Positions 58,622 through 64,000 of a DNA stretch of 64,000 nt are shown piece after piece. Within the stretch, counting starts at the first letter, position 1. Every line of letters starts with the position of its first letter. The notes beneath the pieces were generated by a model. The model had not been told where the DNA came from. It did not search any database and saw nothing but the letters and a program-made list of their open reading frames with translations. This DNA is from a virus: IMG/VR virus record IMGVR_UViG_3300028920_000038, positions 62,001 through 126,000 of that record. The stretch is one strand, 5' to 3'. The position numbers and the translations under genes were made by a program.

Positions 58622-58935
58622 TGTAACACCAAATATGCAGTTTTATGATGAGATGAGGAATCAATAACTACTTCTCTTACTTTATAGGTTTCATCATTAT
58701 AAGTAATTCTATCTCCTCTAGTAACTGTAGAAGAGGATTTCATATAGCATTTATGTTTAACATCGTCGTAGATGCCTGCTAATTGAGTCATTTCAGCTGC
58801 TGTTAAAGGATTTATTCTACAAGGTATAGATGTAGAACCAGCTGTATAAGTATGAGTCCATTCACCGAGCATATTCTGTGATGATACTACAGAATGTTTT
58901 GTTATATTATGAATCATTAAACTATCGAAAGTCAT
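58618..58935 (-). CDS. Head closure protein (SPP1 gp16-like)
   Basis: A 105-residue beta-barrel protein: STSIPCRINPLTAAEMTQLA, TVTRGDRITYNDETYKVREV, and TAYLVLQ at the end. The pattern G-D-R-I-x-Y-x-x-x-x-Y-x-V matches head-tail joining stoppers. Its ATG lies inside the end of the HNH gene, and its stop overlaps the gp10-like start, so order and coupling fit the usual connector set. Confidence 0.75.
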   Translation of the reverse strand: MTFDSLMIHNITKHSVVSSQNMLGEWTHTYTAGSTSIPCRINPLTAAEMTQLAGIYDDVKHKCYMKSSSTVTRGDRITYNDETYKVREVVIDSSSHHKTAYLVLQ

Positions 58936-59170
58936 TTATTCTCATCTTTTTATTTCTAAAATGCACATCATAGTGACATTCACTACATAAAGGAATTAGA
59001 TTACTTTTGCTATTAGATCCTCCTCTTCCAAGGGGGATTATATGATGCAAATGTAAATTACCTTTAGAAAATCTTTGACACATTGCACATCTATATCCAT
59101 ATTCTTTAAAGATCGCATATCTTAATGCATTCCAATTTGAAGGATATCTATCATCAGGACCACTATACAT
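58922..59170 (-). CDS. HNH endonuclease
   Basis: An 82-residue single-domain HNH protein: YGYRCAMCQRFSKGNLHLHH, then IIPLGRGGSNSKSNLIPLCS, ECHYDVH. CxxC pairs bind zinc; His-His, Asn and His form the catalytic set. It is inserted between two connector genes, which is unusual: packaging HNH nucleases normally flank terminase. It overlaps the head closure gene. It may be a homing-type mobile gene or serve DNA packaging. Confidence 0.88.
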   Translation of the reverse strand: MYSGPDDRYPSNWNALRYAIFKEYGYRCAMCQRFSKGNLHLHHIIPLGRGGSNSKSNLIPLCSECHYDVHFRNKKMRINDFR

Positions 59171-60494: not shown

Positions 60495-61466
60495 TTACTT
60501 ATGATAAATTATACAACCAGCGGTTTCTCGAAGAACATCAGTTCCAAATCTCATAGTAACAGAGATTCCCATGAGGTCATGGATAGGATCATCATATTCT
60601 TCTACGGTAAGATCTCTTCGCATGCAGATAGCAGCTAGATCAGCTTTTGAAAATACTAATCCAGTTACGTCAGATCCAGCAGTTGTGTCGTCCCAAGTTG
60701 GTGATGAAGCATCTGTTGCTGAACAAGTGTATGGTGCTAATCCCATAAGTTTAGGAACTTCTCCACCAGTTAGAGGGCCTGAACTTCCTGCATATGAAAC
60801 ATATGCTAGATTTGAATCTTGTAATAGATACCCCTCTGCAGTTGGATGAGTCACTAAAATGTCTGGAAGATATCTCTGTGATTTGACTTTGCTTACAGCA
60901 AATGCAATATCAGATACCGCAATATGAGGTCCAGCTGGGTTTACGGTGTTGGTTGATATTTTATTAGATCCCTGTAGAATTGCATAAAGAACTTCTCGAT
61001 TGAGTTTGTTTTCCATACGAGCGCCTGCTTTCTTAAGTTCCAACTCTACAATATCGAAGAGTGAATCTTCAATAAGTTCATTGGTAATCAATGGGCGAGT
61101 ACCGTATTTGCTAATTGTAATATCCTGTTTTGTATATTCCTCAGTATCGATTGGAATCTTAGCTCCTTCAGCCATTTTTTCTGCATAGTTATTCCCTTCA
61201 CTCTTTACAAAGCGAACTGAATATGAATTTGCATTGATGACTGGAACAACTTCTCTCATACATTTGAAAGGTTCTGCACCTTCAATAATAGTTTTGTAAA
61301 CTTCTTCCTGTACAAGAGTTGAATCGTTTATAGCATCAGCTTCAGATTGAAGAAGTTTGTGTGTATCTTTTCCGATAATGTTTCTGAATGCCTCTTTGTT
61401 CAACATCCTTGAACGTTCTGAATTGCCTGCGAAACCGTATTCTAAAAGTTTAGTTAACTTACTCAT
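60495..61466 (-). CDS. Major capsid protein (HK97 fold)
   Basis: A 323-residue capsid protein. An N-terminal helical segment (AGNSERSRMLNKEAFRNIIG) leads to the E-loop and spine-helix region (CMREVVPVINANSYSVRFVK, GAKIPIDTEEYTKQDITISK), then LITNELIEDSLFDIVELELK, and the A/P-domain (DILVTHPTAEGYLL, GGEVPKLMGLAPY, DLTVEEYDDPIHDLMGISVT). ATG 61466 is right because AAAGGGA precedes it; 26 upstream codons in the same frame would run through the promoter. It follows protease-scaffold and decoration genes as expected. Confidence 0.9.
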   Translation of the reverse strand: MSKLTKLLEYGFAGNSERSRMLNKEAFRNIIGKDTHKLLQSEADAINDSTLVQEEVYKTIIEGAEPFKCMREVVPVINANSYSVRFVKSEGNNYAEKMAEGAKIPIDTEEYTKQDITISKYGTRPLITNELIEDSLFDIVELELKKAGARMENKLNREVLYAILQGSNKISTNTVNPAGPHIAVSDIAFAVSKVKSQRYLPDILVTHPTAEGYLLQDSNLAYVSYAGSSGPLTGGEVPKLMGLAPYTCSATDASSPTWDDTTAGSDVTGLVFSKADLAAICMRRDLTVEEYDDPIHDLMGISVTMRFGTDVLRETAGCIIYHK

Positions 61467-61487
61467 TTTATTTCCCTTTATTTTATT

Positions 61488-61516
61488 ATTATAACATACT
61501 GTAAAATTACAGTGAA
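61488..61516 (-). promoter_or_regulatory. Extended -10 promoter with internal palindrome, ahead of the major capsid gene
   Basis: On the minus strand TTCACT (61516-61511), a 17-nt spacer, and TATAAT (61493-61488) with TG one base upstream (TGTTATAAT). ACTGTAA-TT-TTACAGT (61513-61498) is a near-perfect palindrome filling the spacer and touching the -35. This fits a sigma70-type promoter with an operator or a DNA-bending site. Start of transcription would be about 20 nt before the capsid ATG. Confidence 0.55.
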
Positions 61517-61556
61517 CATAGGACAAATAAACATAAAAAAACATAAAGTTTTAAAA

Positions 61557-61940
61557 TTATTTTAGAAGAACTCTAACTGCTCCATTATTATCTGCATTTT
61601 CTAAAGCGACACCTACACAAACTGCAGTTCCGCCCATAGTACCATGATCATCTACTTTACCAGTTGTGGTTGCATATAAGTCATCTCCAGAATGGATAAC
61701 ACCAGATGCACAACACCTTACGATATTACCAGGTCCATAGACAGCAACTGGTTTTCCAGCAGCTGCTCTATAAGCTGCAACACCAATAACATTATCAGCA
61801 TCATGCGATGCGTGAGCTACACTCATAGTACCAACAGGTGCAACCAAAGCTCCACCAGAAACTGCACTCGATGCTATAAAGCTATAAGCAAAAGTTCCTT
61901 CTTGTACAATGATATCATCACTGGGAGTTACAATAGCCAT
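61557..61940 (-). CDS. Capsid decoration/stabilisation protein (DUF2190-like)
   Basis: A 127-residue beta-rich protein: IIVQEGTFAYSFIASSAVSG, VAPVGTMSVAHASHDADNVI, GVAAYRAAAGKPVAVYGPGN, then GVIHSGDDLYATTTGKVDDH. The pattern G-x-x-V-x-V-Y-x-x-G-x-V and G-D-x-L-Y-x-x-x-x-G matches DUF2190/head-decoration proteins next to capsid genes. AGAGG precedes the ATG. It lies upstream of the capsid gene. Confidence 0.75.
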   Translation of the reverse strand: MAIVTPSDDIIVQEGTFAYSFIASSAVSGGALVAPVGTMSVAHASHDADNVIGVAAYRAAAGKPVAVYGPGNIVRCCASGVIHSGDDLYATTTGKVDDHGTMGGTAVCVGVALENADNNGAVRVLLK

Positions 61941-61971: not shown

Positions 61972-63531
61972 TTACATAAACGCTCTAGAGGTGACAATGC
62001 CACGCTCTACGACAATAGGACTCTCTTTCTCTAGTTCCTCTTCTTCATCTTCTGACTTATTAACCGTTTTTGGTTTCGGTTCCTCTTTCTCTTCTTCATC
62101 AGAAGACTTATTTAAGAGTTCTACCTTTTGTTCAAGAGAATTAATAGCATCATCTTTAGCTTTAAGCGAAGCTTTAAGTTCATCAATTTCCTTAGTCTTT
62201 GTTATTTCCTTCAATAGATTATCGATTGAATTCTGTAAACTTTCAATTGCTTTACTGTCTGGATATGGATATTTAGAAGGCTCTTCTTCCTCTTCCTCGT
62301 CCTCTTCTTCATCCTCTTCCATTTTCTCCTCCTCTTCCTCTTCTTCCATAGGTTCTTCTTCTGGCATTTCTTCTTCTTCTGGCTCTTCTTTTTGAACAGT
62401 TTGTTGTACTAGTTCTACTAGAGATTCAATTGTTTTTTCGATGTTTTCTAATCGCTCTTCAACTGATAATTCTTGCACTTCTGATTCGGTTTCTTCAGTT
62501 TCTTCTTCATCGATCTCCTCTTCAGATGTTTTTTCTTTTTGTTCTTCTATTTCTTCGTTCTCTTCTTCTTTCATAGTATCTAACTCATTTGACATACAAC
62601 ATACAGATTTATTCTCTTCCTTACATTTTGAAATAACTATAAAGCCTGATTTAGGATTGACAGGTTCATTGCAAACTGATACTTCGACTATATTAATTTC
62701 ATCTAGGTGTTCCACGCAGGTTTTATCGTCACATTCTTCGTGTGAAAGTAATACTTCACATCCAATTGAGAATCCACTGATATTTTTATTAAGAATTTCT
62801 TCCCAAACTTCATCAGCGGTTTTAATATCTTTCCTAACTTCGGCAACTACAAATAGTCCTTTATCATCCACATGTGTCTTGTATTTACCAAATCCCTCAA
62901 GGATTTTTCCAATTTGTACATTTTGATGGACTAACATCAAGTTCGCGTAATGTGGATCGTCAAGTAAAGTCTTTAATCCTTTTTTAAGAACTTCAGTAGA
63001 TATGAATTGATTATCTTTATCTATAATAGCTACATTAGCATATCCTGCTATAATTCGTCGTTTGCTATTAGCTTTATTAATTACTCTAAGATTACCTTTT
63101 AAATTTAATTTTATATTTCTTGACATATTTATCACATCCATATTTTCTATTGGTACTAGATTTAATTCAAATATTGGAATATAACTGGTATATGATCCAG
63201 TATTATTATAATGAATATGAACATATTTTTTTATATCATCATATTCACATCCTAATATATGCGTGAATAATCGGTAGATTCTAAAATCTACGGCTTCTTT
63301 AACTTTGTCTGAAAGATCTTCACCTCTAACTACTATATCAATATCATTATTACTGAAACCTTCAGTTGCTACTGATCCTACAATCATTGCAAAAGGTTTT
63401 CTTAATGATATATTCTTTATATTTTTTAATATATTCTCTTTTTTAATAAGACTAGATTTCTCTCCTCTACCTGATGGAGGAGTTGGTGCATATTCTATTT
63501 CAGCTTTTTCAGTTAATTCCTTAAGATTCAT
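61972..63531 (-). CDS. Nucleotidyltransferase-XkdF-type prohead protease-acidic scaffold fusion
   Basis: A 519-residue protein with three parts. Residues ~25-130: a minimal nucleotidyltransferase-like domain with VGSVATEGFSNNDIDIVV (G-S and D63/D65) and IFELNLVP as the likely third acid. Residues ~155-305: an XkdF-like serine protease, IAGYANVAIIDKDNQFIS, LMLVHQNVQIGKILEGFG (H202), ISGFSIGCEV (S252/S255 region), INIVEVSVCNEPVNP. Residues ~315-519: a very acidic, coiled-coil, scaffold-like region ending ERGIVTSRAFM. Protease plus scaffold fusions are known; the extra N-terminal domain is unusual. Stop-start ATGA overlap with the upstream gene. Confidence 0.8.
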   Translation of the reverse strand: MNLKELTEKAEIEYAPTPPSGRGEKSSLIKKENILKNIKNISLRKPFAMIVGSVATEGFSNNDIDIVVRGEDLSDKVKEAVDFRIYRLFTHILGCEYDDIKKYVHIHYNNTGSYTSYIPIFELNLVPIENMDVINMSRNIKLNLKGNLRVINKANSKRRIIAGYANVAIIDKDNQFISTEVLKKGLKTLLDDPHYANLMLVHQNVQIGKILEGFGKYKTHVDDKGLFVVAEVRKDIKTADEVWEEILNKNISGFSIGCEVLLSHEECDDKTCVEHLDEINIVEVSVCNEPVNPKSGFIVISKCKEENKSVCCMSNELDTMKEEENEEIEEQKEKTSEEEIDEEETEETESEVQELSVEERLENIEKTIESLVELVQQTVQKEEPEEEEMPEEEPMEEEEEEEKMEEDEEEDEEEEEEPSKYPYPDSKAIESLQNSIDNLLKEITKTKEIDELKASLKAKDDAINSLEQKVELLNKSSDEEEKEEPKPKTVNKSEDEEEELEKESPIVVERGIVTSRAFM

Positions 63532-63758
63532 GTGAATACACCAGATATTAATAGTGTGATTAGTGTAACTCCTAAGGATAATACAACTGATAGACCTCCA
63601 TACAGCGCTGCGTTTTTAAGTCTCATATTTGTAAGTTTATCATTTATCATCTTGATTTCTTTCTTAACTTCCTTAATATCATCATTCATGTATTTTAATG
63701 TAGTTTTGAATTCCGAATTTAAACCTAGCTGTTTCTCGAGAAGTGTTTCATAGTCCAT
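63528..63758 (-). CDS. XhlA-like coiled-coil membrane protein (holin accessory candidate)
   Basis: A 76-residue protein: a coiled-coil helix (TLKYMNDDIKEVKKEIKMIN) followed by a basic hinge (LRLKNAALYG is approximate) and one C-terminal membrane span (GGLSVVLSLGVTLITLLISG). This is the layout of XhlA-type proteins that help holins in Firmicute prophages. It is set among head genes and not with a visible endolysin, so a virion-assembly role is also possible. GAGGG precedes the ATG. Confidence 0.65.
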   Translation of the reverse strand: MDYETLLEKQLGLNSEFKTTLKYMNDDIKEVKKEIKMINDKLTNMRLKNAALYGGLSVVLSLGVTLITLLISGVFT

Positions 63759-63761
63759 TAA

Positions 63762-64000
63762 CTATACCCTCACCCACATTTCAATAACAGACGATACCCC
63801 ATTATATTTAAGAGGCATACATGTAACATTATACATGTAATCACTCAAAGGACTTTTAACATTACATCTAGTTACAATTTTATTATATTTTATAGATTCT
63901 TCTAATGGACAATCATGTATTAAACCACAATTTCCCTGAATTCCAGCACATGGAGCCATTATAAATTTATCTGAATCTTGATTAATCTCTTTAAATCTTT
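63762..64000 (-). CDS. Cys-rich hypothetical protein, partial
   Basis: The frame stays open to the right edge: RFKEINQDSDKFI lies ahead of the Met at 63959, so the start is outside and 63959 is likely internal. Visible are 78 codons with CAGIQGNCGLIHDCPLEE, CNVKSP and a C-terminal VSSVIEMWVRV. Five Cys suggest a metal site. Family unknown. Confidence 0.55.
   Translation of the reverse strand, partial: RFKEINQDSDKFIMAPCAGIQGNCGLIHDCPLEESIKYNKIVTRCNVKSPLSDYMYNVTCMPLKYNGVSSVIEMWVRV

Follow-up and report, generated by a model that had tools for sequence, protein, structure and literature searches.

The virus analysed here encodes a predicted nucleotidyltransferase (NTase) domain fused to its prohead protease. 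In dozens of viruses, such a domain nearly always occurs with a DNA ligase and usually with an end-healing enzyme, which suggests a repair kit built into viral heads. We propose that the NTase, an ATP-dependent DNA-ligase-type enzyme and a domain resembling the 3'-phosphoesterase of LigD (PE-like domain) could form a nucleic-acid end-repair kit tied to the prohead protease, and we put the probability of this reading at about 0.5. Its parts are encoded among the head-morphogenesis genes of tailed viruses that infect archaea and probably also bacteria. The window, the whole stretch of 64,000 nucleotides that was analysed, corresponds to G000:62001-126000, where G000 is an IMG/VR virus record of 137,847 bases; L-numbers (L002, L012 and so on) are labels of fetched viral loci.

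The NTase-protease fusion protein

The fusion occupies one gene of the head region (Table 1). An NTase-like domain ahead of a prohead protease and an acidic scaffold had been proposed in the preliminary description, and this architecture is borne out by its recurrence in more than 20 contigs, by the Peptidase_S78 match and by the composition of the tail. The protease had been called XkdF-type in the same description. The window protein is instead of the S78/HK97 kind, also matching NCBIfam TIGR01543 (proheadase_HK97) at aa 160-296 (E 3e-11, under its cut-off), and it is the proteases of L012 and L022 that score as XkdF family (PF14550).

Table 1. Features of the fusion gene and its neighbours (window positions unless a record or locus is named; residues numbered in the 519-aa protein).
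Feature	Position	Strand	Basis or remark
NTase + S78 prohead protease + acidic scaffold tail	61972-63531	-	Single uninterrupted ORF, 519 aa
Predicted nucleotidyltransferase domain, about aa 25-135	63127-63459 (approximate)	-	Family alignment, AlphaFold2 model, fold search
GS...DxD motif GSVATEGFSNNDID, aa 52-65	63337-63378	-	G52, D63, D65 in 44/45 rows
E122, candidate third metal-binding acid	63166-63168	-	D or E in 24/45 rows only
Peptidase_S78 / HK97-type prohead protease, aa 155-300	62632-63069	-	Pfam PF04586, E 1.5e-12, above cut-off
Acidic scaffold-like tail, aa 311-519	61975-62601	-	Composition, 40% D+E
Cement/decoration protein, downstream	61557-61940	-	PF09956, E 1.1e-7
HK97-fold major capsid protein, downstream	60495-61544	-	PF05065, E 2.8e-12
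76-aa protein, hydrophobic C-terminus	63528-63758	-	4-base overlap with start of the 519-aa ORF
142-aa protein, PAS-like by eye only	63762-64000, on to G000:126191 (L007:7763-8191)	-	Head module

When the full 519-aa protein was compared with Pfam, the N-terminal domain matched no family at E<=1, and the trimmed domain scored best against NTP_transf_2 (E 0.15). With the domain alone as query, no match in Pfam, PHROGs or NCBIfam passed the cut-off, PDB sequences searched by profile were matched only weakly, and the NTase family as a whole was recognised here by no Pfam model above its cut-off. Its distant homologues share hG[GS]...DID, two arginines and one threonine (alignments of 25 and 45 rows); G52, D63, D65, R84, R87 and T115 are invariant in all 25 rows of the smaller alignment, and in the larger none of them is missing from more than one row. 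The Pol-beta superfamily signature, hG[GS] followed by DxD, is absent only from L078, the row seen without GS and DxD. Homologues without the conserved acids would have spoken against the preliminary description; both DxD aspartates in fact persist in nearly all homologues, while the third carboxylate is found in only about half of them. With two expected metal ligands secure and the third not, catalysis is not assured.

An AlphaFold2 model based on a 24-row alignment reached a mean pLDDT of 86.7 (an earlier AlphaFold model from 12 rows was poor, pLDDT 67.8). The 12 best PDB matches in a fold search were all MNT nucleotidyltransferases, with weak E-values (0.017-0.30) and a TM of about 0.3, so that an MNT fold is consistent with the model and not proven by it. 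Viral structure predictions also gave weak matches, with a Pol-beta NTase at the top. Based on its sequence, the N-terminal domain is very probably a minimal Pol-beta/MNT-type NTase, the fold family being assigned at moderate confidence.

The 142-aa PAS-like protein had no Pfam match, and its counterpart in L002 scored with PAS_8 at E 0.03, under the cut-off. An 82-aa HNH-endonuclease-like protein, recognised by eye, is encoded within the run of head-completion genes (window 58922-59170, minus strand), and a similar protein is encoded at L074:9536-9775.

Ligase and phosphoesterase-like partners across related viruses

The NTase domain matches the N-terminus of a protein annotated as 'ATP-dependent DNA ligase' in ANMV-1 (AJP62006.1, KP703175; E 5e-8). 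Successive scans extended the family to more than 20 IMG/VR contigs and one Methanophagales MAG contig; the phage collection held no relative besides ANMV-1, and the plasmid collection held none. Archaeal hosts are suggested by two members, ANMV-1, a virus of uncultured archaea, and the Methanophagales MAG contig.

A scan led by the protease, and blind to the NTase and the ligase, returned 60 loci, more than 20 of which carry the NTase inside the protease ORF; the remainder lack it there. In an unrooted tree of 45 NTase rows with several long branches, one branch (100/99) parts all 21 fusion rows from the 24 ligase-linked rows, and the closest kin of the window's domain are L065 and L093. The sister clade has the domain in giant viral proteins.

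HMMs for the NTase, ligase, PE-like and S78 domains were built here from the family itself and then run on the loci. Where a locus had been fetched by its NTase, a ligase domain was found either on the NTase ORF itself or on one a short distance downstream, and a PE-like domain likewise on the NTase ORF or one close to it, except in the truncated L014. The KxDG motif is present in all ligases checked for it. Every locus of the sister clade has an ATP-dependent ligase domain fused to the NTase or encoded close by, nearly always together with a LigD-phosphoesterase-like domain. The protease takes several positions: S78 is fused C-terminally in L030, L031, L033 and L042-L044, lies on a separate ligase ORF in L032, and is encoded by the next gene in L034, L035 (weak match) and L045-L048. 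Protease, ligase and PE-like domains are fused in L012, L022, L030 and L031. Elsewhere a ligase gene, a PE-like gene and an NTase-protease gene repeatedly follow one another in this order (L069, L074, L081 and L087 are examples), and L003-L005 encode a ligase with a PE-like tail beside S78, without the NTase.

The loci are fragments from metagenomes, with many near-copies among them. In a search of whole records from the protease-led sample with PF01068, a ligase was found in 13 of 17 NTase-bearing records versus none of 21 NTase-less records (Fisher p=4e-7), and after clustering at 80% in 5/6 versus 0/12 clusters (Fisher p=7e-4). Three of the four NTase-bearing records without a ligase are fragments of <=18 kb, and the fourth is L078, in which the GS and DxD have been lost and the ligase match is weak and partial. 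Coupling of the NTase to a ligase across these related viruses is very likely. The ligases of Burkholderia phage DC1 and of Bradyrhizobium phages were set aside, as no such kit surrounds them.

The ligase scores as a DNA ligase, and NHEJ-ligase models are among the best. For L030 the scores do not reach the LigD/NHEJ cut-offs (TIGR02776, 54 bits, cut-off 373; TIGR02779, 57.5 bits, cut-off 228). The PE-like domain of the relatives also stays below the Pfam cut-off for PF13298 (best E 2.5e-5). In L025 and in L074 the ligase has an MBL-fold domain ahead of it; L025 and L042 contain DNA methylase domains. Within L071:4555-7371, an intein-like insertion splits the GPFT motif of the NTase between F and T, and within L025:6603-13328 a LAGLIDADG intein-like insertion lies in the PE-like domain at its HxDxR site, which we take to be the catalytic motif of the LigD phosphoesterase. 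Inteins tend to occupy conserved functional sites.

Parts of the proposed kit in the window's own virus

The genome sequence of the window's virus is predicted to encode all three parts. Its ligase is a 718-aa protein (G000:7515-9671, minus strand; L008:7515-9671) that joins a PAPS-reductase-like domain to the ligase domain (PF01068, 5e-14). The N-terminal domain is of the PP-ATPase type (PF01507, E 2.7e-12), an unusual pairing. The PE-like protein, of 413 aa (G000:126416-127657), was recognised at E 1e-7 with the HMM made here only, had no Pfam match, and is encoded upstream of the NTase-protease, from which two genes separate it. Searches of the record, which may be incomplete, found no Ku (PF02735), no PF13298 and no LigD_N family match.

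Candidate terminase and portal genes lie at G000:10.7-15.0 kb, the portal being called by its positional likeness to L002; a portal search in the phage collection gave no match. A 468-base match at 96% links the start of the contig to an internal stretch close to its end. Large fibre-like genes at G000:1-7340 and 128-137.8 kb share repeats, and the assembly probably broke there. Because the match falls within fibre genes, we infer rather than observe a circular continuity that would run from the ligase through the fibres and the PE-like gene to the NTase-protease.

Possible functions and comparison with known systems

An NTase, a ligase and a phosphoesterase-like domain are the usual make-up of end-healing-and-sealing systems. 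RNA end-healing-and-sealing systems of this make-up have been described (PMC7824862). In the sister clade, the parts of the proposed kit mostly form one large polyprotein, sometimes with the prohead protease at its end, and in the window's clade the NTase is fused directly to the protease, with the ligase and PE-like proteins encoded elsewhere in the module. Fusion to the protease would load the NTase into the procapsid, because protease and scaffold assemble there. Such loading is a reasonable deduction from the fusion, with roughly even chances of being correct; survival of the NTase through maturation and its injection are conjectural. The kit could then act on ends or nicks in the viral genome, healing and sealing them as packaging proceeds or directly after injection, possibly for genome circularisation. 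The substrate would be DNA or RNA ends. DNA ends are the first guess, given the DNA-ligase scores and the MBL-fold and DNA methylase domains, and RNA ends are the main rival. If the NTase, its coupling to the ligase and its loading are all granted, repair of DNA ends could as easily be right as wrong. It is a tentative and rather doubtful proposition that a widespread set of tailed viruses, archaeal and bacterial, would preload their procapsids, via fusion or linkage to the protease, with a Ku-less LigD-like NTase/ligase/phosphoesterase machine that heals and joins the ends of the injected genome. The end-repair reading is weakened because the third metal acid is present in only about half of the rows, the PE-like scores are low and the fold matches weak. 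It is also weakened by the lack of Ku in the record and by L003-L005, where ligase and protease occur without the NTase.

In a kit for RNA, the NTase would restore 3' nucleotides, phosphoesterases would heal ends and the ligase would rejoin tRNAs that host defence RNases had cut, much as RlaP systems work. We consider this unlikely, since the ligase scores with DNA-ligase and NHEJ models, the PE-like domain resembles that of LigD, DNA methylase domains co-occur and no Pfam RNA-repair NTase model was matched. Pfam presumably includes an RlaP model, and no RlaP family was among the matches of 12 NTase family members at E<=10. Still, a 2H phosphoesterase (2_5_RNA_ligase2) stands ahead of the NTase in L022, and the RlaP proteins of jumbo phages are likewise Pol-beta NTases that operate with ligases, albeit RNA ligases (PMC7824862); the family described here differs in its DNA-ligase-type partner and its tie to a prohead protease. 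Quite unlikely is that the domain serves as a catalytically weak NTase-fold adaptor, tying the ligase and phosphoesterase to the protease/scaffold for entry into the procapsid. The frequent absence of the third acid would fit such a role, and co-occurrence with a ligase fits binding as well as catalysis, but GS and DxD are kept in 44/45 rows and lost only with the degenerate ligase of L078, and the NTase and ligase of the sister clade mostly share one chain, which needs no adaptor.

The nearest solved folds, weakly matched, are MNT antitoxins of HEPN-MNT systems (PDB 7ae9, 8xeh), which share the GS + DxD motif and AMPylate HEPN toxins, and Pol-beta NTases of polyvalent proteins are predicted to modify proteins (PMC5512222). 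The present domain differs from those antitoxins in being fused to a protease or a ligase. By analogy, the NTase, once freed from the protease, might AMPylate a capsid protein or a host protein, as an early effector or in anti-defence; a toxin-like or anti-defence module was also among the suggestions of the preliminary description and finds no support here. Protein modification of this kind is very unlikely. It leaves the ligase partnership unexplained, and no HEPN-like gene was noticed beside the NTase: a HEPN Pfam match was sought in the 76-aa upstream neighbour and the cement protein and none was found, the other neighbours being inspected by eye. The constant ATP-dependent ligase partner, usually with a LigD-phosphoesterase-like domain, and the lack of a visible HEPN argue for end repair over modification of a host target. 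A chance motif or an assembly artefact, to which the lack of an above-cut-off Pfam match for the N-terminal domain might point, is hardly credible, as the same fusion occurs in more than 20 other contigs on one side of a well-supported branch (100/99).

Compared with bacterial LigD and NHEJ, the proposed end-repair kit likewise combines an ATP-dependent ligase with two further domains, one 3'-phosphoesterase-like and one of a nucleotide-adding type. Unlike in those systems, the window's record has no Ku, the ligase is far under the LigD cut-offs, and the NTase belongs to the Pol-beta type, the polymerase of LigD being of the primase type. In ANMV-1, the homologous NTase is also followed by ligase and PE-like domains, without a protease fusion. 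Its NTase and PE-like parts are unannotated in the record, and the family provides a reading for them. No description of an NTase-ligase-PE kit was found in the full-text literature searched, which is weak evidence because most subscription papers are outside its coverage. The nearest published frameworks are RlaP systems (PMC7824862) and the polyvalent proteins of phages and conjugative elements (PMC5512222). Like polyvalent proteins, which are multi-enzyme, belong to a virion-gene context and sometimes include a Pol-beta NTase or 2H domain, L022 has disparate catalytic domains (ligase, 2H and protease) in one chain in such a context, and the window ORF has NTase and protease. That paper leaves DNA ligase unmentioned and reports a paucity of polyvalent proteins in archaea. 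If the end-repair reading is true, the prohead protease would be a delivery vehicle for nucleic-acid repair enzymes, and a testable answer would be available to the question of how genomes are repaired or circularised on entry in viruses whose hosts have not been isolated.

Two further observations concern the related loci. A small protein encoded after the portal (L002:1881-2540 and L074:673-1203) looks by eye like a putative second prohead protease beside the S78 one; in ANME-1 viruses, two capsid proteins have been described, each of which has a protease of its own (PMC9894754). In IMGVR_UViG_3300031997_000047 (L012/L016/L021/L032), QueD-, QueE- and FolE-like genes of the 7-deazaguanine pathway, recognised by eye, separate the NTase ORF from the ligase-protease ORF and hint at modified DNA in that virus.
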